A DNA stretch of 35,310 nt from Bacteroidales bacterium. Its GTDB lineage: Bacteria; Bacteroidota; Bacteroidia; Bacteroidales; S143-33. A program made the translations under genes and the position numbers. Shown here piece after piece: positions 2 to 34,277 of the stretch; the stretch's first letter is position 1; every line of letters begins with the position of its first letter. The stretch lies in the NCBI GenBank assembly GCA_027031265.1, contig JALVRO010000184.1, positions 1 through 35,310 on the forward strand, written 5' to 3'. Below the pieces are notes generated by a model. The model was given only the letters and a program-made list of their open reading frames with translations. It searched no databases and was not told the origin of the DNA.

Positions 2-3000
2 ACATTCGAAAACCTTGTTGTAAATAACTATCCTCACAAGCTAATACTTAATTCTGACATTGTAGCCAACGACACCCTTACCTTGAATAGTATGATTAAT
101 GGCAATGGACATACTGTAACTATTGGTCAAGACCTGGGCAACATTGGTACACTTATTTATCAGAGCGGCAAGATAATAGGTAAGGTCAAAAGATGGATAA
201 CTGCTTCGACCAATCCATATCTTTATCCCATTGGCACAGATAATTTCAACACATTTGTTAATGTTACTTTCCCCAGCCTTGCCTCTGGTGGTATAGCTTC
301 ATTCCAGTTCATAGATACAATGCCTGGATCCAATGGACTACCCCTTAAAGATGGCCAGGGAGACACAGCCGTAAACCCATTCAATGACGGGTATTGGATA
401 GCTGACACATCTAATGGTTTTAGCCTGGGAACAAATACTTATTCATTATCACTTCAGGGAAAAGTCTTTAATGCTTTTACCATACACGACTCTACAAAAA
501 TCATTGTTCGTCCACACCAGGATTCTTTATGGCGCTTTGATGGCCAGCAAGGAACTAATGATCCTGCCAACTACACAGTAGCACGAACAGCTCTGGATAC
601 TTTTCCATGGCAGTTTGCCCTGGCAGATACTACACATTGCTCGCCCCCAACACTCACCGTAATTAACGGACCTGCTGACGTATGCCGTGGTGACGCTGGT
701 ATTACATACACAACAGATACCTCTAAAACAAACCTTTACTTCTGGAGCGTCACTGGAGGCACTATTACACAGAATAAAGGAGATACTATTACTATTGACT
801 GGCAAAACGATGGTCAGTTTGCCACAATCTCTGTCTATGCCCAGAATTCATGCTCCTTTGGCAATACTATAAAAAAAACAGTCAAAGTACACTCCATACC
901 TCCAGATGTCATATATGGACCCCGCTCAGTACCTGTCGGTTCCGACAGTGTGCTCTATTATATAGACAGACTACCAGATTATTCATACTCAGGTAGTGTG
1001 ATTGGTAACGCTGTAATTGACTCTATTTCACCAGATATGGACTCAGCCTGGATATCTTTCCCAAAAGTAGGAACTGACACTATCCTGACAATAGCCCAAT
1101 ACAATGCTGGCTGTGCATCTGATACTACTGCATTCCCGGTCTATGTCTATGACGTTATAGAATCAGTCCAATCAGGTGACTGGTATGACCCATCCACATG
1201 GGACTGTAATTGCCAGCCACTGAATACTGACAATGTTAGAATAAAAACAGGCCACACAGTTTTAGTAAATCAATATACAGATACAAGAAGAGGTATAAAT
1301 TACACAAGTTATGACATAAACAATGTTATTATAGAAAAAGGCGGAACTCTTACTCACGATAACGGTATAATACTCAATATTTACGGTGATATTACCAACA
1401 ATGGCGTAATTGATTACAAATATCAAAACTTACAACTTTATGGAACAAATAAAACTATAGATGGTCTTGGTGTTTTCAGTGTAGATACTATCGAGCTAAA
1501 AAACTCGCGTGTCATCAGCACAAATGCTAATCTAACTATTAATGGTAGCTTCTTGCTGAACAACAACTTGCTTAACAATCAAGGAAAATTAATTGTGGGT
1601 AATGACATAAAAGCCAGTACAGGAACCTTTGTCAATGGCCGTAACGCTAACCTATCAATCAAAGGTAGTCTCTTATCATCTGGCGGAGAGCTGATAGCTG
1701 ACTCCACAGATAATACTATCTCTTATATTGGCAAAGACCAGGCTACCACACCCGTATCAACCTCATCCACAGGTTATTACAACCTATTCCTTGGTGGTAA
1801 TGGTACAAAAACAGCAACAGGAGATCTCACAGTACTGGGTGACTTTATTATCACCGATACTGCTTCCTTTGACTTACAGAACCATAATATTACTCTCTAT
1901 GGTGATTGGTATGAATACAGTACTGATCTTGATCCGTTCATTGAAGGCTCGAGTCTTGTCCTATTCAATGCCAGCGGAGACCAGCATATTTATGCCCAAA
2001 ATTGTGAGACCTTTTATGACCTCAAAATAGGCCAGAATTCTATTCTTCACGCCACACCAAATCAGCATTTTACAATCATAAATAATTTCTACCTCGACGG
2101 CTTAGTCAAGCTAGAAATGAACACTTATAACGACACACTACCATCACTGATTTATTACAACGATATTATTTATGGAACAAACGGCGCAGTAGAGACAGAT
2201 CTGATGATAAATGCAAAGCAATGGCATGAAATAAGCCCAGCTATTGTGGGACTGAATAGTGGGCAGTTTACTCGCCTCAATAATGGAGCATTCGATGCTA
2301 ACCTTTATTGGTACGACGAATCTGTTGACCTGAATAGTGACCCATCTACTCCCCCAGCAGATCCATTCGATAACACATATCTGTCACAAGGCTGGAAATT
2401 TGCTCACAACGGATCTAGCGGCGCAGATGTACCACTTAATCTTAACGGTGGTTACCTCTACTACATAGACCGTGACACTACCTTCCAGATGAAAGGGACA
2501 GTGGCCAGAGTCTCTGTCAACTATGACACAATACTGAGCTATAATGCTAATGACCCAATAAGCGATACTCTACCCAACTTCTACGACGGATGGAATCTCA
2601 TCGGTAATCCATATCCAGCATATCTCAATATTGACTCTATCCTCAATAACTCCGTCAACGTGGATAACGGGGTCTTCGTATGGGACGATGCCAATGGTCA
2701 ATACGCTGGATACAAGAACGGCTACAGTATAATGGCTGGTACCTTGGGGAACCTGGTTCCACCTCTACAAGCATTCTTTATCAGAGCTAATGCAACTGGT
2801 GCAGCTGTCAAGATTCGCCCTGAGTATCGTGCACACGGGAAACAGCAATATCTCAAAAACTCAACCACATCCGTATATAAACTCAACGCAATCAAACTTG
2901 GGTTTTCTACTGATAATAGTACTGAATATTTTGCCGCATATTTCTACCCACAGGCAAAAACTGGCTATGATTCTAGATTTGACCTGATTCATCTCTCATC

Positions 3001-4108
3001 AAATGATCCTGCCCGTCCACAACTCTTTGGCGAAAAGAATAACATTAAACTTGCATTACTTGCTCTGCCTGATAGCCTGATGGGTAATACAGTAATTCCT
3101 CTTTATATCCAGACTTCACTCTCTGGTACACACAAGTTGTCTGTCCTGTTCGTCAATGGCATGAACAACAATTTTGTAGTCCTGCGTGACAGTAAAACAG
3201 GCCAGATGTATGACCTGAGACACAAGAAAAACATCGAATTCCAGTACACAGCTGGAGAAGACACACATCGCTTTGACCTGATGATCATTAGAGATAATCC
3301 TCCTGTGGTCAAAGACACTATTCCAGAACTCATTGCCTTTGAGGATAGCATATTTAGTTTCGCATTAAACGGATACTTCGCTGACAATGATATGTTTGAC
3401 ACACTTATCCTGAAAGTTAACAATCTTCCTGCATGGTTACATTTTGATGGTCAAAGACTCTACGGCAAACCTTCACAAACAGACGTTGGACAGACTAGTA
3501 TCACTATCGAGGCCTACGACATCTTTGGCCAGAAAGCCAGTCAGAATGTCAACGTGCAAGTCCTGAACACAAACGATCCCCCAAAAGCAAATTACACACT
3601 TGACGAAATAATAACTATGGCCAATGACCGCTTTATTTACGCATTACCTGGTGATCTGTTTACAGACCCAGATCCTCAGGACAAGCTGACTATTACGGCT
3701 ATCAATTTACCCGGGTGGCTCAATTTTGACGCACAGACACTAACGTTTACCGGATTCCCGAGAACTAATGATGTGGGTATTTACAAAACCACCCTCACAG
3801 CAATAGATCAATCTGGAGAAAAAGCTGCTACTACAATGACGATCAAGGTAGAAACCAAACCACAGCTCCAGGGCAAAGCCGTTAACATTTACCCGGTACC
3901 TGCTAGCCAGGACCTGAACATCCTTCTGGCTACTCCAACAGACAATGACATAATAAAAATCTACACCACAAATGGAAAGCTAATCAAACAAATCAAAGCA
4001 ACAGATGACTTGACACACCTGGATATAACAGACTTACAGGCTGGCCAATATATCATAGAAATACAAAACGGTGGCCAGACATATAAACTAAAATTCACAA
4101 AGATCTAA
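2..4108 (+). CDS. Large secreted multidomain protein with T9SS type A C-terminal sorting domain (5' end truncated by window)
   Basis: Frame 2 stays open to the window edge (TFENLVVNNYPHKLILNSDIVANDTLTLNSM...), so the listed start at 83 is internal. PKD-like segment (INGPADVCRGDAGITYT...FWSVTGGTI), G8-like segment (SGDWYDPSTWDCNCQPLNTDNVRIKTGHTV), two cadherin/He_PIG-like repeats (LPAWLHFDGQRLYGKP; LPGWLNFDAQTLTFTGFP), and a terminal sorting-domain pattern NIYPVPASQDLNI...IKIYTTNGKLIKQ...GQYIIEIQNGGQTYKLKFTKI. Confidence 0.9.
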   Translation, partial: TFENLVVNNYPHKLILNSDIVANDTLTLNSMINGNGHTVTIGQDLGNIGTLIYQSGKIIGKVKRWITASTNPYLYPIGTDNFNTFVNVTFPSLASGGIASFQFIDTMPGSNGLPLKDGQGDTAVNPFNDGYWIADTSNGFSLGTNTYSLSLQGKVFNAFTIHDSTKIIVRPHQDSLWRFDGQQGTNDPANYTVARTALDTFPWQFALADTTHCSPPTLTVINGPADVCRGDAGITYTTDTSKTNLYFWSVTGGTITQNKGDTITIDWQNDGQFATISVYAQNSCSFGNTIKKTVKVHSIPPDVIYGPRSVPVGSDSVLYYIDRLPDYSYSGSVIGNAVIDSISPDMDSAWISFPKVGTDTILTIAQYNAGCASDTTAFPVYVYDVIESVQSGDWYDPSTWDCNCQPLNTDNVRIKTGHTVLVNQYTDTRRGINYTSYDINNVIIEKGGTLTHDNGIILNIYGDITNNGVIDYKYQNLQLYGTNKTIDGLGVFSVDTIELKNSRVISTNANLTINGSFLLNNNLLNNQGKLIVGNDIKASTGTFVNGRNANLSIKGSLLSSGGELIADSTDNTISYIGKDQATTPVSTSSTGYYNLFLGGNGTKTATGDLTVLGDFIITDTASFDLQNHNITLYGDWYEYSTDLDPFIEGSSLVLFNASGDQHIYAQNCETFYDLKIGQNSILHATPNQHFTIINNFYLDGLVKLEMNTYNDTLPSLIYYNDIIYGTNGAVETDLMINAKQWHEISPAIVGLNSGQFTRLNNGAFDANLYWYDESVDLNSDPSTPPADPFDNTYLSQGWKFAHNGSSGADVPLNLNGGYLYYIDRDTTFQMKGTVARVSVNYDTILSYNANDPISDTLPNFYDGWNLIGNPYPAYLNIDSILNNSVNVDNGVFVWDDANGQYAGYKNGYSIMAGTLGNLVPPLQAFFIRANATGAAVKIRPEYRAHGKQQYLKNSTTSVYKLNAIKLGFSTDNSTEYFAAYFYPQAKTGYDSRFDLIHLSSNDPARPQLFGEKNNIKLALLALPDSLMGNTVIPLYIQTSLSGTHKLSVLFVNGMNNNFVVLRDSKTGQMYDLRHKKNIEFQYTAGEDTHRFDLMIIRDNPPVVKDTIPELIAFEDSIFSFALNGYFADNDMFDTLILKVNNLPAWLHFDGQRLYGKPSQTDVGQTSITIEAYDIFGQKASQNVNVQVLNTNDPPKANYTLDEIITMANDRFIYALPGDLFTDPDPQDKLTITAINLPGWLNFDAQTLTFTGFPRTNDVGIYKTTLTAIDQSGEKAATTMTIKVETKPQLQGKAVNIYPVPASQDLNILLATPTDNDIIKIYTTNGKLIKQIKATDDLTHLDITDLQAGQYIIEIQNGGQTYKLKFTKI

Positions 4109-4167
4109 TTTTTTTCGTATTCACGCTGAGATACAAAAAGTCTCAAGCCTATTGCATAATTTTTAAC

Positions 4168-4203
4168 AAAAACGGGCTGGAAAAAAATTCCAGTCCGTTT
4201 TAT
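4168..4203 (+). terminator. Rho-independent-type hairpin downstream of the T9SS protein gene
   Basis: aaaacgggctgg-aaaaaaatt-ccagtccgtttt stem-loop followed by T/A-rich sequence. Confidence 0.6.
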
Positions 4204-4260
4204 TATCAATTTTCCAACCAATTTTATAAATTATTGTCAAAATAATACATACCAGAAGCC

Positions 4261-7200
4261 ATGAAACGCCTTATTCCACTGCTTCTTACCATATCATTTA
4301 CGCTTACAACATTCGCACAATATTATGGCCGTAACAAAATCAAATACGAACAATTCCACTTCAAAGTATACCAAACTCCACACTTCCAGTTATACTCATA
4401 CCTCAAGGACACAACAACAATCAACCGCATAGCACAGATTGCTGAGAAATGGTATGTACGTCATAGCCTGGTATTCAACGATACTATCCATTTCCTCAAC
4501 CCTGTGATTCTGTTCAACAACCACGCAGACTTCCAGCAAAATACAGTTAGCAATCAAATAATAGACGTAGGAACAGGCGGTTTTACAGAGGCGCTGGAAA
4601 ACCGCATAGTCATGCCACTGGGTGTGTCATGGGCACGCACAGACCATGTCCTGGGACACGAGCTAGTGCATGCTTTCCAATATTCACTGATCTTGGAGGA
4701 TTCTTCGTTGTCTATCCGCAGCGTTATGAATATTCCTTTGTGGATGATAGAAGGTATGGCTGAGTACCTGTCCATTGGCAGTAACGACGCTTTCACCTCT
4801 ATGTGGATACGCGATGCTATTGCTACAGATAAATTTCCTGATTTTCGCGATCTTGAAAAAAGCCGTTATTTCCCCTATCGCTGGGGACAGGCTTTTTGGG
4901 CCTTTATTGATGGTGTGTATGGTATTGATATGTTTGTACCACTTTACAAAGAAGCTGCTCGCAGTGGTTATGCCAAGGCATTCAAAAATGTTTTGGGTGT
5001 TAAAGAAGATACCCTTGCACAGGTGTGGAAAAAATATTCTTATGACCATTACGCACCTTATCTAAAAACAAGACAGGTCAAAGGTATTGGCACAAAACTG
5101 ATTAGCCCTGACAATGGCGGTAATATTAACATTAATCCTGTGGTCAGCCCGAATGGCAAACACATTATTTTTCTTTCGGAGAAAGATGTTTACTCTTTTA
5201 ACATGTTCCTGGCAGATGCACAGACCGGACAAATCATTAGACGTCTACATACACGCGCTAATGATGGTCATATAGATGCAGCAGACTTATACGAATCTAC
5301 TGGCACTTGGTCGCCTGATGGTAAGTATATCGCTTTTGTTGTTTATGAACATGGAGATAATGGGCTGATAATCATTGATGCACAGACAGGAAAAATCATT
5401 AAAGACATAACATTCCCACAGTTCGAAGCATTCACGTATCCAGCATGGTCACCTGATGGGCAGTGGATAGCTTTCTCTATTATTAACAATAGCCAGACAG
5501 ACATTGTGCTTTATAATGTTAAAAATGGTCAGACCAGACAGCTAACTAATGATATTTATGCACAATTCCAGCTTTCCTGGTCACCTTCTGGCAAGTATCT
5601 AGCCTTTTCAACAGACTCATTCCCAGGTATTTCCTCTCCTACAAAAAAATTCCACATTGCATACATGGACATGCAAACAGGCCAGATCATTGTGCCCAAT
5701 ATTATGCCCACAGCAAATAACCTTAATCCTATCTTCTCGAGCGATGAAAAATACATTTACTTCCTCTCTGATAATCATGGCTTTAGAGACCTTTACAGGT
5801 ATAATCTAAACACAGGTAGAGTCGAACGCCTTACTAACTTTTATACTGGTATCTGTGGTATAACAGAGCTCTCTCCTGCTATAACCATGGACTACAAACA
5901 TAACCGTATTTTTTACACACTTTACCTGGATAACAAATACACTATTTACAGTATTGCTGTAGATTCACTCATCCCACAACAGGGCATAGCCACACAACCG
6001 GTCGACTCGGCAGCTATCCTGCCTCCACTGGAAAGTACCCACAGCATTGTCAATCGCAACATTGCACGTGACCAAGTTTTGTTTTCCACATTCCAGACTA
6101 TCGAGATAAAACATGTACCATTCCGCCGCAAATTCAAAATTGAATACATTAGCAACATGGGCTTTGGTATCACCAACACATACCGGGGCATGGGCGTTTA
6201 TGGAGGTGTGAACATCCTGCTGGGTGACATCCTTGGCGAAAACAGGGCTTTCGTAGGCTTTAGTGGCGGTGGAAATGGCCTCAGGTCAATAGGAGGACAG
6301 GTTGCCTACCTCAACCAGCAAAGGCGCACATGGTGGGGTGTGACCCTGACACACATGCCTTACCAGCTGGGAACCATGTTTTACGAACCAGCACGCATCC
6401 CTTATGGTAATGACTCACTGGATGTACTAAATGCAGGCCTTGATATTCTGACAATTTTTAACGACAATATCACTTTCTTTGCTTCATATCCTATAACCCG
6501 TACACGCCGTGTAGAAGCAGCCACAGACATGACCTTTTTCTCATTTTTGCACCAAATCGTTAACAACTATTTCTACGGTAATCTCTTTGTGGGCCAGACT
6601 GTTGACCAGGCACCAGCGCCAGAACCTTATGCTGTTGGCTCCACTAATATGTCATACATTGAGGATAATTCTTACATGGGTATGACTTCTCCTCTGGAAG
6701 GCAAAATTTTCTCAATGCACATGTCTGCATTTTATGGCGCTTATAATTTCTACTCAGCAAACCTGGACTGGAGACGTTACCTGCGTCTGCAGCCAGTGAC
6801 CTTTGCTTTTCGTTTGCTGGCCACAGGTAGATTTGGTCATGATGCAGAGGGCCAGGCTTTACCTGACTATTACATCGCATACCCCTGGTACATTAGAGGC
6901 TACAACAATCATACCCTGGCTAATTACATGGCACAAACAGGTAATTACCAGCTTTCCTATGGCCTGACAGGCAGCCGTCTTGCTGTGCTCAACTTTGAAA
7001 TCCGTTTACCTTTCATAGGTATTGACCGTCTGGCAGTCGTTCCATCAAAATTCTTCTTTGCAGACCTTAATGCCTTTGTAGATGCAGGCCTGGCATGGCA
7101 TTCGTATGACAGAGTATCGCTCAATCCCTTCCATTATCAAGATAATGTGCATATCCCTCTTGTTAGCACAGGCCTATCTGCCAGGATTAATCTTTTTGGA

Positions 7201-29377: not shown

Positions 29378-29977
29378 GTGCAGAAAGAAAAAAATAAAAC
29401 TTTAATCATCCTCTTGATAATCATCATCGTGAACAATGGCTGTGGCCTTTATATGAAAAAAGTTATTGGATATCATAATATCCAAAAGAAAGACTATCCA
29501 CAAATTCTGGCAATACAGGATAGCACAACGAATTATCGGCATCTTAGAGTAAACAATGACTATTTTAAAAAAATAATAGAGCTAGAAATTCCTGACACAG
29601 TAAAAAAGTATTTCCTGCAACCAATCCAAATATTATACATTAAAGAAGGCAAGCCTTATGCTTTTGTTGCCAATTGTTTCATTAAGGGTAGTTTAAAAGG
29701 CTTGAAATGGACAGAAGACTCTTTTTTTAATTCTTTCCCACCTGGTTCTCATATTCCCAGGCATTATCTCAGCGAATTAACAAATCTTATGCATCTTGAG
29801 AGGCATAAATTAACGAATAATACTTTTGTTCTGCTCTGGTCTAATATAGCCACGAATGAAGCTTACAGAGCTTTGGATGCCCTGAGTTATTACATAACCA
29901 AAAACAAAATCACCGATGCCCTGGTTATTATCGTTAACACTGATAATACCTTTAAAGAAATTCTCAACGAAAAATAA
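29378..29977 (+). CDS. Hypothetical lipoprotein-like protein
   Basis: GTG start; LIILLIIIIVNNGCGLY lipobox-like N-terminus; no recognised family. Confidence 0.55.
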   Translation: MQKEKNKTLIILLIIIIVNNGCGLYMKKVIGYHNIQKKDYPQILAIQDSTTNYRHLRVNNDYFKKIIELEIPDTVKKYFLQPIQILYIKEGKPYAFVANCFIKGSLKGLKWTEDSFFNSFPPGSHIPRHYLSELTNLMHLERHKLTNNTFVLLWSNIATNEAYRALDALSYYITKNKITDALVIIVNTDNTFKEILNEK

Positions 29978-30073: not shown

Positions 30074-30373
30074 CTACTTCATAGCATCAATCTTTTTCTC
30101 CAGTTCTTTGATACGTTTTCGGACCTGATCCAATTCTCTCTTGCGCACAAGCTGCAAACTCTCCAAAGTACTGTGGATCAATTCATCTAATTTTTTCTTA
30201 ATATCATGCGAATATTTTTCAGTAGCTTGCTGAAACTCCTGTTTTATTTTCTTTGCATCTATCTCGCTAATCTTTGATTCTTTGACCAGAGTGTCGAGAG
30301 TCTCGCCCAGTTTACGTCCCAGATCTACAGTAAGACCTAGACTTATGTAGAAAAATTTTTCTAGCTGGTTCAT
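30074..30373 (-). CDS. Phasin-like coiled-coil protein
   Basis: MNQLEKFFYISLGLTVDLGRKLGETLDTLVKESKISEIDAKKIKQEF...QVRKRIKELEKKIDAMK; resembles PHA granule-associated (PhaF/PhaI-like) proteins and the neighbouring ORF. Confidence 0.65.
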   Translation of the reverse strand: MNQLEKFFYISLGLTVDLGRKLGETLDTLVKESKISEIDAKKIKQEFQQATEKYSHDIKKKLDELIHSTLESLQLVRKRELDQVRKRIKELEKKIDAMK

Positions 30374-30386
30374 TGTAATGAATTTT

Positions 30387-30731
30387 TTATTTATCCTTTT
30401 TGTCTGATGGTAGCTGTTTCTGCTCCAGCTTTTGCTCTAATTCTTCGAGTTTTTGCATTAGTTTGTCAAGATCTTTTTTCCTGGCAAATTTCATTTTTTC
30501 AACAAAATCTTTGATATAGTCGTCCATCTCTTTCTGAAGCTGGTCTTTTTTACCAGCAATATCTTTGACCATCTTGTTAATGTGTCCTTTCAGATCATCA
30601 AGGCTAACCTTGTTTTCCTTAATAAGCTTAGAGACAGATTTTTCCAGCTTTTCCACAGCAATAGCTCCCAGTCCTACTCCTGCATAAAATAAACGTGTGA
30701 AAAGGGATTCTTTTTTTCCTTCGTTGGACAT
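30387..30731 (-). CDS. Phasin-like coiled-coil protein, paralog of the neighbouring ORF
   Basis: LFTRLFYAGVGLGAIAVEKLEKSVSKLIKENKVSLDDLKGHINKMVKD...LDKLMQKLEELEQKLEQK. Confidence 0.65.
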   Translation of the reverse strand: MSNEGKKESLFTRLFYAGVGLGAIAVEKLEKSVSKLIKENKVSLDDLKGHINKMVKDIAGKKDQLQKEMDDYIKDFVEKMKFARKKDLDKLMQKLEELEQKLEQKQLPSDKKDK

Positions 30732-30810: not shown

Positions 30811-32379
30811 TTATTCTCCGGCTAGCAATGCACCTTTATCGTCTGGAAAATCCAATCCAGAAGGTTGCTGATAAACGACCAGGTCAAACAAAGAAGCCAC
30901 TGCCATCAGATGCTCAAAAAGCTCAGATTGTATTTTCTCATAACGGCCCCAGTCAGTAGTAGCTGCAAACACATAAACCTCTATAGGCAGCCCTTTGTCA
31001 GTAGGACTCAGGTCCCGCACAAGCAAAGTCAGATCGTCACAGAAAAGCCCATCTTTAACCAGAATCTTCTCTGGCACCTGAATCTCAACAAGAGCACCTT
31101 TGCGAATAACTTCACGCCGAACCTTGCGAATCTTATACAAATAATTATTCTCAAGCATATAATAATCACTGTAATGCATCAGAAACTTTGAAACATTCTC
31201 AAGCACTGTCTTGCCGTCAATCTCCCTGATATAACGACGGACCTCTGTGCCCAGCTCTGCGACAAAACCGTCCACATCATCTATGACAAAACGCTCTACC
31301 TCCACATCATTATAGACAAATTTTTGCTTCTTGTATTTCTTGTAAACACGTAAATTAGCACGTAGATAGCGTTCAATATATTCCCTGTAGAGGCTAACAT
31401 TTGTATATGCCTTACCAGTAAGTAAAGAATATTTATCGCTTTTGTCCGTGATATTCAGCTCTTTTTTTACTTTCCTGGCATAATCACTCATCAAAGGGAT
31501 TTTCTCCATATTGGCCAGCAGATCAGGTTCTGCAACTTTTATGGTCTGCATATCAATATAAATAGCCCGCTTTATACGGCGGCCACCGGCCATCTGCATA
31601 CCTTTCCAGTTGATAAAGGACTCCTGGATAAGCGCATAAGTCGGCAGAGTGGCTATTGTCTTGTCAAAATTGCGAATCTTGACTGTGGTAAGATTAATAT
31701 CCAGCACATCGCCATCAATACCGCGCTTGGGTACTGTTATCCAGTCACCTTCGTGTACCATATCATAAGCCGACAGCTGTATGCCAGCCACAAAGCCCAG
31801 GATAGTATCACGAAATATCAACATCAACACAGCTGTCATTGCACCCAGACCAGCTATAATACTACCCGGCTTCTGGCTCAGAACTATTGATATTACCAGG
31901 ATAATGGCAATTATAATCACAATAATTTTAACAACCTGGACATACTGTTTAAGTGTGAGACGGTAACCTTTTTTCTCGGAAATAATCTCATAAATATCAT
32001 TCAACGCATTAAGGAAAGCATTAATAACGATTGTCAAAGCAATAATAACATAAATGGCCACAAAATCATCTACTATTTTAAGTATCAAAGGATTATCCGT
32101 AGCCAGAGGGGCAAGAAAATAAATTATCGCAGAAGGTATCAGATGCGAAAGGTTATTAAACACACCCTGCTTGAGAAAAATATCATCGTATTCGTTCTTT
32201 GATTTTTTTATAATCTTGGCTACGATCTTTATAATGACTCGCTTTGTCAGCCAGTTACCCAGAATAGCCAGCAGGATTATTCCAATGCCTAGTAATATTC
32301 CACGGGCTACTTCGGCCTGCATGCTGTTCAAACCCCACTGGTTAAGCAAACTGGCCAAATCTGCGCCAATATTTTTCAT
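30811..32379 (-). CDS. MscS-family mechanosensitive channel (YbdG-like)
   Basis: IIAGLGAMTAVLMLIFRDTILGFVAGIQLSAYDMVHEGDWITVPKRGIDGDVLDINLTTVKIRNFDKTIATLPTYALIQESFINWKGMQMAGGRRIKRAIYID. Confidence 0.93.
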   Translation of the reverse strand: MKNIGADLASLLNQWGLNSMQAEVARGILLGIGIILLAILGNWLTKRVIIKIVAKIIKKSKNEYDDIFLKQGVFNNLSHLIPSAIIYFLAPLATDNPLILKIVDDFVAIYVIIALTIVINAFLNALNDIYEIISEKKGYRLTLKQYVQVVKIIVIIIAIILVISIVLSQKPGSIIAGLGAMTAVLMLIFRDTILGFVAGIQLSAYDMVHEGDWITVPKRGIDGDVLDINLTTVKIRNFDKTIATLPTYALIQESFINWKGMQMAGGRRIKRAIYIDMQTIKVAEPDLLANMEKIPLMSDYARKVKKELNITDKSDKYSLLTGKAYTNVSLYREYIERYLRANLRVYKKYKKQKFVYNDVEVERFVIDDVDGFVAELGTEVRRYIREIDGKTVLENVSKFLMHYSDYYMLENNYLYKIRKVRREVIRKGALVEIQVPEKILVKDGLFCDDLTLLVRDLSPTDKGLPIEVYVFAATTDWGRYEKIQSELFEHLMAVASLFDLVVYQQPSGLDFPDDKGALLAGE

Positions 32380-32439: not shown

Positions 32440-32922
32440 ATGAAACGTAAAGCCGTATTCCCAGGATCATTCGATCCTTTTACCATTGGGCATGAGCTGA
32501 TTGTGCGCCGTGCCCTGAACCTTTTTGACGAAATAATCATTGGCATTGGTATAAACATTGAAAAAAAACATCTATTTCCGCTGGAAGTTAGACAGAAATG
32601 GATAGAGGAGATTTTTGCCAGTGAATCGAAAATAAAGGTTATGACTTACAATATGCTCACAGTGGATTTCTGCCGTCAGCAAGGTGCCAGGTTTATCCTT
32701 CGTGGGCTGAGAACATCTGCTGACTTTGAATACGAAAGAATTATTGGACAGATAAACAGGCAATTGGGTGAATTTGAGATCGAGACTGTTTACCTGCTCA
32801 CCCTGCCCGAACACACTTATATCAGTTCAACTTTTGTGCGCGAGGTTATCAAATACAAAGGTGATATACGCAAGTTTGTTCCCGAAAACATAGCCCGCGA
32901 TATTATGCAAAACTGGTATTAA
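32440..32922 (+). CDS. coaD: Pantetheine-phosphate adenylyltransferase
   Basis: AVFPGSFDPFTIGHELIVRRAL, RFILRGLRTSADFEYE, YISSTFVREVIKYKGDIRKFVPENI. Confidence 0.96.
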   Translation: MKRKAVFPGSFDPFTIGHELIVRRALNLFDEIIIGIGINIEKKHLFPLEVRQKWIEEIFASESKIKVMTYNMLTVDFCRQQGARFILRGLRTSADFEYERIIGQINRQLGEFEIETVYLLTLPEHTYISSTFVREVIKYKGDIRKFVPENIARDIMQNWY

Positions 32923-32949
32923 TTTTTTATCTTGGTTAAAAACACACCT

Positions 32950-33498
32950 ATGCGCTGGATAATAATTTGCTTATTAACATTATTCTCTTACATGACCATA
33001 GCACAAAAATTCGAAAGCATCAGCACTGTATGGTCTGGTCAGGACGCCTGGGAACAATGGCGTATCAACTCTTCTGAGGGTAGCGGCAAATTACATACAA
33101 TATGGCCTGACGATCCTTATGAATGGAGATTCTACTTGCCTGGAGATGATGGCACAATACAAGCGGTCTGGTCTGACGATGACTCCAGGTGGCGACTTTC
33201 TTCGGATAAATCCCACTGCCAGATAAGGCAAGAATGGATTGATGACTGGCATTCATGGGAGATAACATGCGACTCTACCGAGATAGATGTACGAACCAGC
33301 TGGAGCGGAGACGATGCCTGGGACGAATGGCGTGCTACCAGCAACCAGGGAGAAATACGAATACGGGCCCGCTGGTCTGATGACTGGACAGACTGGGATA
33401 TTGACGACCAGATGAAGGCTCCTGTTTCGGAAAAATTAGCAGTAATATTTATCGCTATTTACACAGCACAAAAGATCGGTAAAAAACAACAAAAATGA
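32950..33498 (+). CDS. Secreted protein with six tandem ~22-aa W-x-D-D...W repeats; family not recognised
   Basis: Signal peptide MRWIIICLLTLFSYMTIAQ; repeats ISTVWSGQDAWEQWRI / LHTIWPDDPYEWRF / IQAVWSDDDSRWRL / IRQEWIDDWHSWEI / VRTSWSGDDAWDEWRA / IRARWSDDWTDWDI. ATG at 32950 preferred over TTG at 32932. Confidence 0.85.
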   Translation: MRWIIICLLTLFSYMTIAQKFESISTVWSGQDAWEQWRINSSEGSGKLHTIWPDDPYEWRFYLPGDDGTIQAVWSDDDSRWRLSSDKSHCQIRQEWIDDWHSWEITCDSTEIDVRTSWSGDDAWDEWRATSNQGEIRIRARWSDDWTDWDIDDQMKAPVSEKLAVIFIAIYTAQKIGKKQQK

Positions 33499-34277
33499 AA
33501 CTTTTTTACCGCAGATATGGTCATGGCAAACCCATGGTGATCCTTCATGGACTTTTCGAAATGTCCGACACATGGGTAGGCTTTGCCAAACATTGGGACG
33601 GAGACTTCCAGGTTATCCTCCCAGACATGAGAAACCATGGCTTTTCGCCCCATTCACCCGATCATAACAGCCAGGTCATGGCCGACGATATACTGGAGCT
33701 CACAGAGGAACTAAAACTTCGAGACATTATACTTATCGGCTATTCCATGGGTGGTCGTGTGGCAATGAACTTCACACAACGTTTCCCACACCTGGTGAAA
33801 AAACTTATTGTCATTGACATGGCGCCTGATAGATACAAACCCGGTGATTTTCTTGGCGAGCACTCATATCTAATGAAAATGAACCTTGTGCTCGACATAA
33901 ACCCCTCATTATACAACTCACGGGAAGAGCTCCTCCGCGAGGTACAAAAATTCATTGACAATCCTCGCCTCACAGGTCTGATAATGAAAAATCTAAAAGC
34001 CCGCACAGGACGTTATGAATGGAAATTTAATGCTTTAGCGCTGAAAAAATACATAAATAACCTGCGTGACTATCCAATTGACATAAACCAACAGATAAAT
34101 ACACCAACCCTGTTTCTTCGTGCTGAGCAGAGCCCCTACATTGGAGAAAAGCAGATAGAAATAATCAAGCATGTTTTCACAGACCACAAGATCATAACCA
34201 TTCCCGGCACAACACACTTTCTGCAGGTCGAGCGGCCTGGAGAGGTCATGCGTGCAATTGATGAGTTTTTACAATAA
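33495..34277 (+). CDS. Alpha/beta hydrolase (YbfF-like esterase)
   Basis: MVILHGLFEMSDTWVGFAKHW, DMRNHGFSPHSPDH, ILIGYSMGGRVAMNF (nucleophile elbow), GTTHFLQVERP; ATGA overlap with the upstream gene. Confidence 0.9.
   Translation: MKLFYRRYGHGKPMVILHGLFEMSDTWVGFAKHWDGDFQVILPDMRNHGFSPHSPDHNSQVMADDILELTEELKLRDIILIGYSMGGRVAMNFTQRFPHLVKKLIVIDMAPDRYKPGDFLGEHSYLMKMNLVLDINPSLYNSREELLREVQKFIDNPRLTGLIMKNLKARTGRYEWKFNALALKKYINNLRDYPIDINQQINTPTLFLRAEQSPYIGEKQIEIIKHVFTDHKIITIPGTTHFLQVERPGEVMRAIDEFLQ

Follow-up and report, generated by a model that had tools for sequence, protein, structure and literature searches.

Background

Beta-flowers are small proteins of 8, 10 or 12 short strands, arranged as petals with four-, five- or sixfold symmetry, and [DNEQ]xxG is their semi-conserved repeat motif (PMC10584680). 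Many of them enclose a C-terminal hydrophobic helix, some carry lipoprotein motifs, and the sixfold members resemble the Tubby C-terminal domain (PMC10584680). The scramblase, LURP-one-related and Tubby C-terminal domains (PF03803, PF04525 and PF01167; clan CL0395) form a barrel in which 12 strands surround a hydrophobic helix (PMC10584680). In the present work, we describe a gene for an exported six-repeat protein in a window of 35,310 nucleotides (the whole stretch of Bacteroidales DNA analysed; coordinates are those of the window unless another locus is named). The repeat family to which it belongs is not assigned to any existing Pfam family and, in our judgement, is probably built like a beta-flower.

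The repeat gene and its neighbours

The open reading frame begins with ATG at 32950 and its last stop base is at 33498; an alternative in-frame TTG start is possible at 32932. The gene and its immediate surroundings are as follows.

32440..32922, + strand: coaD (phosphopantetheine adenylyltransferase), upstream neighbour (NCBIfam TIGR01510 above cut-off; synteny)
32950..33498, + strand: gene of the predicted six-hairpin exported protein, 182 aa + stop (ORF list, synteny, dN/dS)
32950..33006, + strand: putative signal peptide MRWIIICLLTLFSYMTIAQ, residues 1-19 (read from the sequence by eye)
33495..34277, + strand: alpha/beta-fold hydrolase, downstream neighbour (Pfam PF00561)

The stop codon of the repeat gene overlaps the start of the hydrolase gene as ATGA. 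Directly after coaD is where the gene was found in all genomes of its genus (4/4), and the alpha/beta hydrolase lies downstream, overlapping or abutting, in three of the four. Comparison with the nearest relative gave a dN/dS of 0.19, which, together with the presence of the gene in 4/4 genus genomes, indicates a real gene and not a chance open reading frame; the repeat protein is maintained under purifying selection. The preliminary description had called the product a secreted protein with a signal peptide, and this agrees with the export signal as read from the sequence, which is probably cleaved after A18. Many relatives are lipoproteins as judged by a Cys motif at the signal-peptide site.

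Further upstream in the window, two adjacent small coiled-coil-like ORFs resembling phasin-type proteins by eye were seen at 30074-30731 on the minus strand, with a mechanosensitive-channel-like membrane protein, also recognised by eye, beside them at 30811-32379. A 199-aa ORF with a GTG start at 29378-29977 (+) has a possible lipoprotein signal (NNGCGLY) and no Pfam or NCBIfam match.

Six predicted hairpin repeats

The six repeats quoted in the preliminary description were all present in the protein, and a strict W/D pattern finds exactly 6; when the protein was shuffled 5,000 times, it found 0.10 on average and never more than 2. Each repeat coincides with a predicted beta-hairpin; all six were delimited by the pattern/shuffle test and the predicted strands.

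33019..33066, + strand: predicted hairpin 1, ISTVWSGQDAWEQWRI, residues 24-39
33091..33132, + strand: predicted hairpin 2, LHTIWPDDPYEWRF, residues 48-61
33157..33198, + strand: predicted hairpin 3, IQAVWSDDDSRWRL, residues 70-83
33223..33264, + strand: predicted hairpin 4, IRQEWIDDWHSWEI, residues 92-105
33289..33336, + strand: predicted hairpin 5, VRTSWSGDDAWDEWRA, residues 114-129
33361..33402, + strand: predicted hairpin 6, IRARWSDDWTDWDI, residues 138-151

An alignment of 124 repeats from 21 relatives gave the column order hydrophobic (100%), polar, Thr, variable, aromatic, an S-x-D and Trp-rich turn, Trp, polar, hydrophobic (99%). Among the 124 repeats the hydrophobic share was 100% at position 4, 3% at position 5, 5% at position 20 and 99% at position 21. 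The acidic turn is conserved, with D at one position in 81/124 repeats, and the Trp that follows, at position 19, is far better kept (123/124). The unit of strand, Trp, acidic turn, Trp and strand that had been proposed earlier fits both the repeat alignment and the predicted strands. From this hydrophobic/polar alternation and the predicted strands, we infer that each unit is a beta-hairpin with one hydrophobic face, on which the alignment places bulky Trp and Ile in every hairpin.

The family is divergent, down to about 20% identity, and the repeat number is nonetheless six in nearly all members and five in one. Cys90 and Cys107 lie on either side of hairpin 4, where they would be opposite one another; they co-occur in 3/4 genus members, so that a disulfide between them is plausible.

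A conserved C-terminal hydrophobic segment

After hairpin 6 the protein carries a hydrophobic stretch, LAVIFIAIYTA, a feature missing from the preliminary description, as are the near-fixed repeat number and the ATGA overlap with the hydrolase gene.

33424..33492, + strand: predicted C-terminal helix, residues 159-181 (AlphaFold secondary structure; conserved columns)

The segment was retained in the aligned full-length relatives, with F and A columns conserved across 21 relatives, takes the form of AASFIPIFTSS-like sequences in other relatives, and persists in family members at only about 20% identity. Its 11-13 hydrophobic residues are short for a membrane anchor, and the predicted helix is hydrophobic on all sides.

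Searches of known families

The repeats had earlier been described as matching no recognised family, and Pfam and NCBIfam indeed gave nothing above cut-off for any member. At a limit of E 10, no member had a Pfam match to PF21784-6, PF03803, PF04525 or PF23728; for PF21784-PF21786, neither the 21 members (limit E 10) nor the family consensus gave a match. No scramblase or LOR match was found in the source genome.

The family-profile search of 396 genomes returned three non-family matches, including one true PF03803 scramblase (E=5e-4; Pfam 3e-20). The scramblase profile-profile score was 27.8, versus at most 17.4 in shuffles, and it disappeared when the query was reversed or the target shuffled. 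When ranked among 94 other proteins, one scramblase came first and most others fell in the noise; one of eight scramblases ranked above null proteins. In 15 genomes with a known scramblase, LOR or beta-flower protein, the family profile recovered only the same one scramblase among these proteins. The LOR and beta-flower profiles gave no signal, except that the C-terminal segment matched marginally. A control repeat of the DUF285/BspA-like type, W/D-rich and unrelated, scored 28.5 against the 27.8 of the scramblase, that is, equally well, so that scramblase kinship by sequence is not established. Membership of CL0395 by sequence is not proven.

Predicted fold

AlphaFold modelling of the mature protein with one relative gave 12 strands followed by a helix at 141-163 (pLDDT 70, pTM 0.71), and the full-length protein with its signal peptide gave the same topology (pLDDT 65, pTM 0.63); confidence is moderate, as the input comprised two sequences and the remaining four models reached 46-55. 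The preliminary description had suggested a Foldseek search with such a model. That search was carried out against PDB and viral models and yielded no significant match (nothing at E < 0.001), and the beta-flower fold is likewise reported to lack PDB matches (PMC10584680, Durairaj et al. 2023). The 50 best matches listed for either model included no Tubby, scramblase or LOR structure, which, with models of moderate quality, is weak evidence.

The reading that we favour, with somewhat better than even confidence, on the basis of the sequence pattern and the models, is a closed six-petal barrel around the C-terminal helix, as in sixfold beta-flower and Tubby-like domains (CL0395). After export through the putative signal peptide, the protein would fold as a closed, roughly sixfold-symmetric barrel in which each repeat would be one petal, an antiparallel beta-hairpin. 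Within a petal, the first strand would end in the aromatic residue, the S-x-D-D-W turn would form the hairpin tip, and the second strand would begin with the near-invariant Trp. The hydrophobic face of the twelve strands would point inward and pack on the short C-terminal helix filling the barrel, and the acidic, Trp-bearing tips would form one rim. The count of petals, six by pattern with 12 predicted strands, lies within the four to six hairpins of beta-flowers. Of the 39 conserved Gly in two columns, 21 occur as [DNEQ]xxG, against a background of 26%, and Gly is well kept at only 2/6 inter-repeat positions. As far as it can be read from the sequence, the architecture agrees with that of beta-flowers.

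The alternative that survives best, though we consider it unlikely, is an open, single-layer or solenoid-like sheet of hairpins in the style of OspA or MORN repeats, in which Trp ladders would run along one face and the C-terminal helix would serve as a cap. Linear stacking is possible for hairpins of this length, and OspA and junctophilin (MORN repeats) were among the weak top Foldseek matches. However, open arrays rarely keep their repeat number, which here is near-fixed at six down to about 20% identity and thus argues for a closed ring; moreover, every hairpin has a hydrophobic face, and one short helix would hardly be enough to cover an open sheet of 12 strands. For the same reason, the solenoid of the preliminary description finds no support, since an open solenoid would vary in repeat number and the protein here ends in a helix.

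Less probable still is an up-and-down barrel like that of lipocalins or FABPs, with a cavity for a small hydrophobic ligand and the C-terminal helix lying outside or serving as a lid. Tardigrade SAHS proteins, which are FABP-like, had the highest TM-scores (0.40-0.48) among the matches listed for the second model, and lipid could be the cargo of an exported barrel encoded close to lpx genes. Nevertheless, the Foldseek E-values were 0.1 or worse, and the bulky Trp/Ile faces together with the all-round hydrophobic helix suggest a filled core, not a cavity.

The small beta-propeller or Ca2+/glycan-binding repeat protein that was first proposed is very improbable: it has the regular Trp/Asp spacing in its favour and a match to designed Cake propellers (E 1e-6; phmmer, PDB sequences), but a blade needs about four strands, so that six hairpins, or 12 strands in six two-stranded units without four-stranded blades, make three blades at most, where propellers usually have four or more, and in the model the strands are followed by a conserved helix. 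Kinship with Cake itself was rejected, as no single Cake stretch passes alone and the profile search drops Cake to E 0.3, so that the resemblance is one of shared W/D composition. Nothing in the sequence or model analysis speaks for Ca2+ or glycan binding. A repeat number that hardly varies, an alternation that leaves one side of each hairpin hydrophobic, and the topology of the AlphaFold models together favour the closed barrel over both propeller and open solenoid.

Distribution in Bacteroidota

The preliminary description had asked whether the repeat defines a Bacteroidetes-wide family. Profile searches found the same architecture in roughly 1-3% of the Bacteroidota genomes sampled. Among the sampled genomes, relatives were detected in 9/393 from the order (with one marginal and doubtful case), in 13/395 from the class and in 5/396 from the phylum, the last after removal of three non-family matches; the three counts include the source genome, and the samples partly overlap. 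The family is spread across several taxonomic families of Bacteroidota, and the nearest named relative was a Bacteroidales MAG (L002). No relatives were found on viral contigs or plasmids. Two relatives from different taxonomic families, L010 (952-2007) and L026 (736-1749), carry roughly 160 additional residues at the N-terminus, a domain with the pattern DEGLSSxVHKxxxGKIxFSxxxIxFQ...GDPIYGR and no Pfam match.

Gene neighbourhood and possible function

Within one genus, the repeat gene lies in the lipid A operon, directly after lpxA, in 4/7 genomes, these being all four that hold the gene, and the order is lpxD-lpxC/fabZ-lpxA-[repeat gene] (L077, L078 at 1617-6752, L079 and L081). An ABC ATPase and efp follow the lpxA-adjacent repeat gene in three of the four, the contig ending in the fourth, and the repeat gene is duplicated in L078. 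Outside this genus the neighbours differ, so that the link to lipid A serves as a lead in a single lineage; in another taxonomic family of the class, for instance, genes of AhpC/TSA type and DUF3127 type flank the repeat gene in three genomes (L083, L084 and L086).

Export, the predicted barrel and the lpx neighbourhood together suggest a role in the envelope. As its likeliest role, the protein might serve as a small, non-enzymatic structural or binding domain, periplasmic or facing the outer membrane, whose rim perhaps contacts lipid or a partner protein; this assignment of function is a tentative guess. More speculative, and in our view doubtful, is the wider proposal of a family so far confined to Bacteroidota, of exported six-petal barrels, each held together by an aromatic ring around the C-terminal helix, that would act in outer-membrane lipid or LPS handling and be the counterpart, among exported proteins, of the Tubby/scramblase fold. 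The lpxA neighbourhood offers a concrete place to seek function. At present, what the repeat protein represents is a plausible fold in a domain family yet to be characterised, not a new mechanism. Being absent from Pfam and NCBIfam yet spread across several taxonomic families of Bacteroidota, the family would make a clear-cut new entry, probably within clan CL0395, and, should the barrel reading be true, it would link exported Bacteroidota lipoproteins to the Tubby/scramblase fold.

Comparison with known systems

Two further kinds of protein came up in the searches. The PCC/MCC BT domain (PF18140) is an antiparallel barrel around a helix, with eight strands and an N-terminal helix, and is part of a carboxylase subunit. 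It gave weak Pfam matches in 6/21 members (best E 0.03) and weak Foldseek matches to MCC, but the Pfam matches lie far below cut-off. L044 and L045, which we take to be DUF285/BspA-like surface repeats, share the 'DWD' wording of the repeat and matched the family profile at E ~1e-3, but are long multi-repeat proteins (767 and 2222 aa as open frames); these matches were taken as false positives of composition.

The scramblase, LOR and Tubby domains have a hairpin spacing that is alike by eye, whereas the bacterial examples examined lack, again by eye, a signal peptide and have no regular Trp repeats. The beta-flower proteins (PF21784, PF21785 and PF21786) differ in that the repeat described here is Trp-rich, acid-tipped and without a Pfam match in any member, and in that their profile-profile scores stay at noise except for the marginal match of the C-terminal segment. 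Like the protein described here, they are exported or lipoprotein-anchored, are made of short repeated beta-hairpins in fixed number, and end in a hydrophobic C-terminal segment, KKEWAAVVYFFF in a fivefold example (L050) and EKLAVIFIAIYTA in the present protein.
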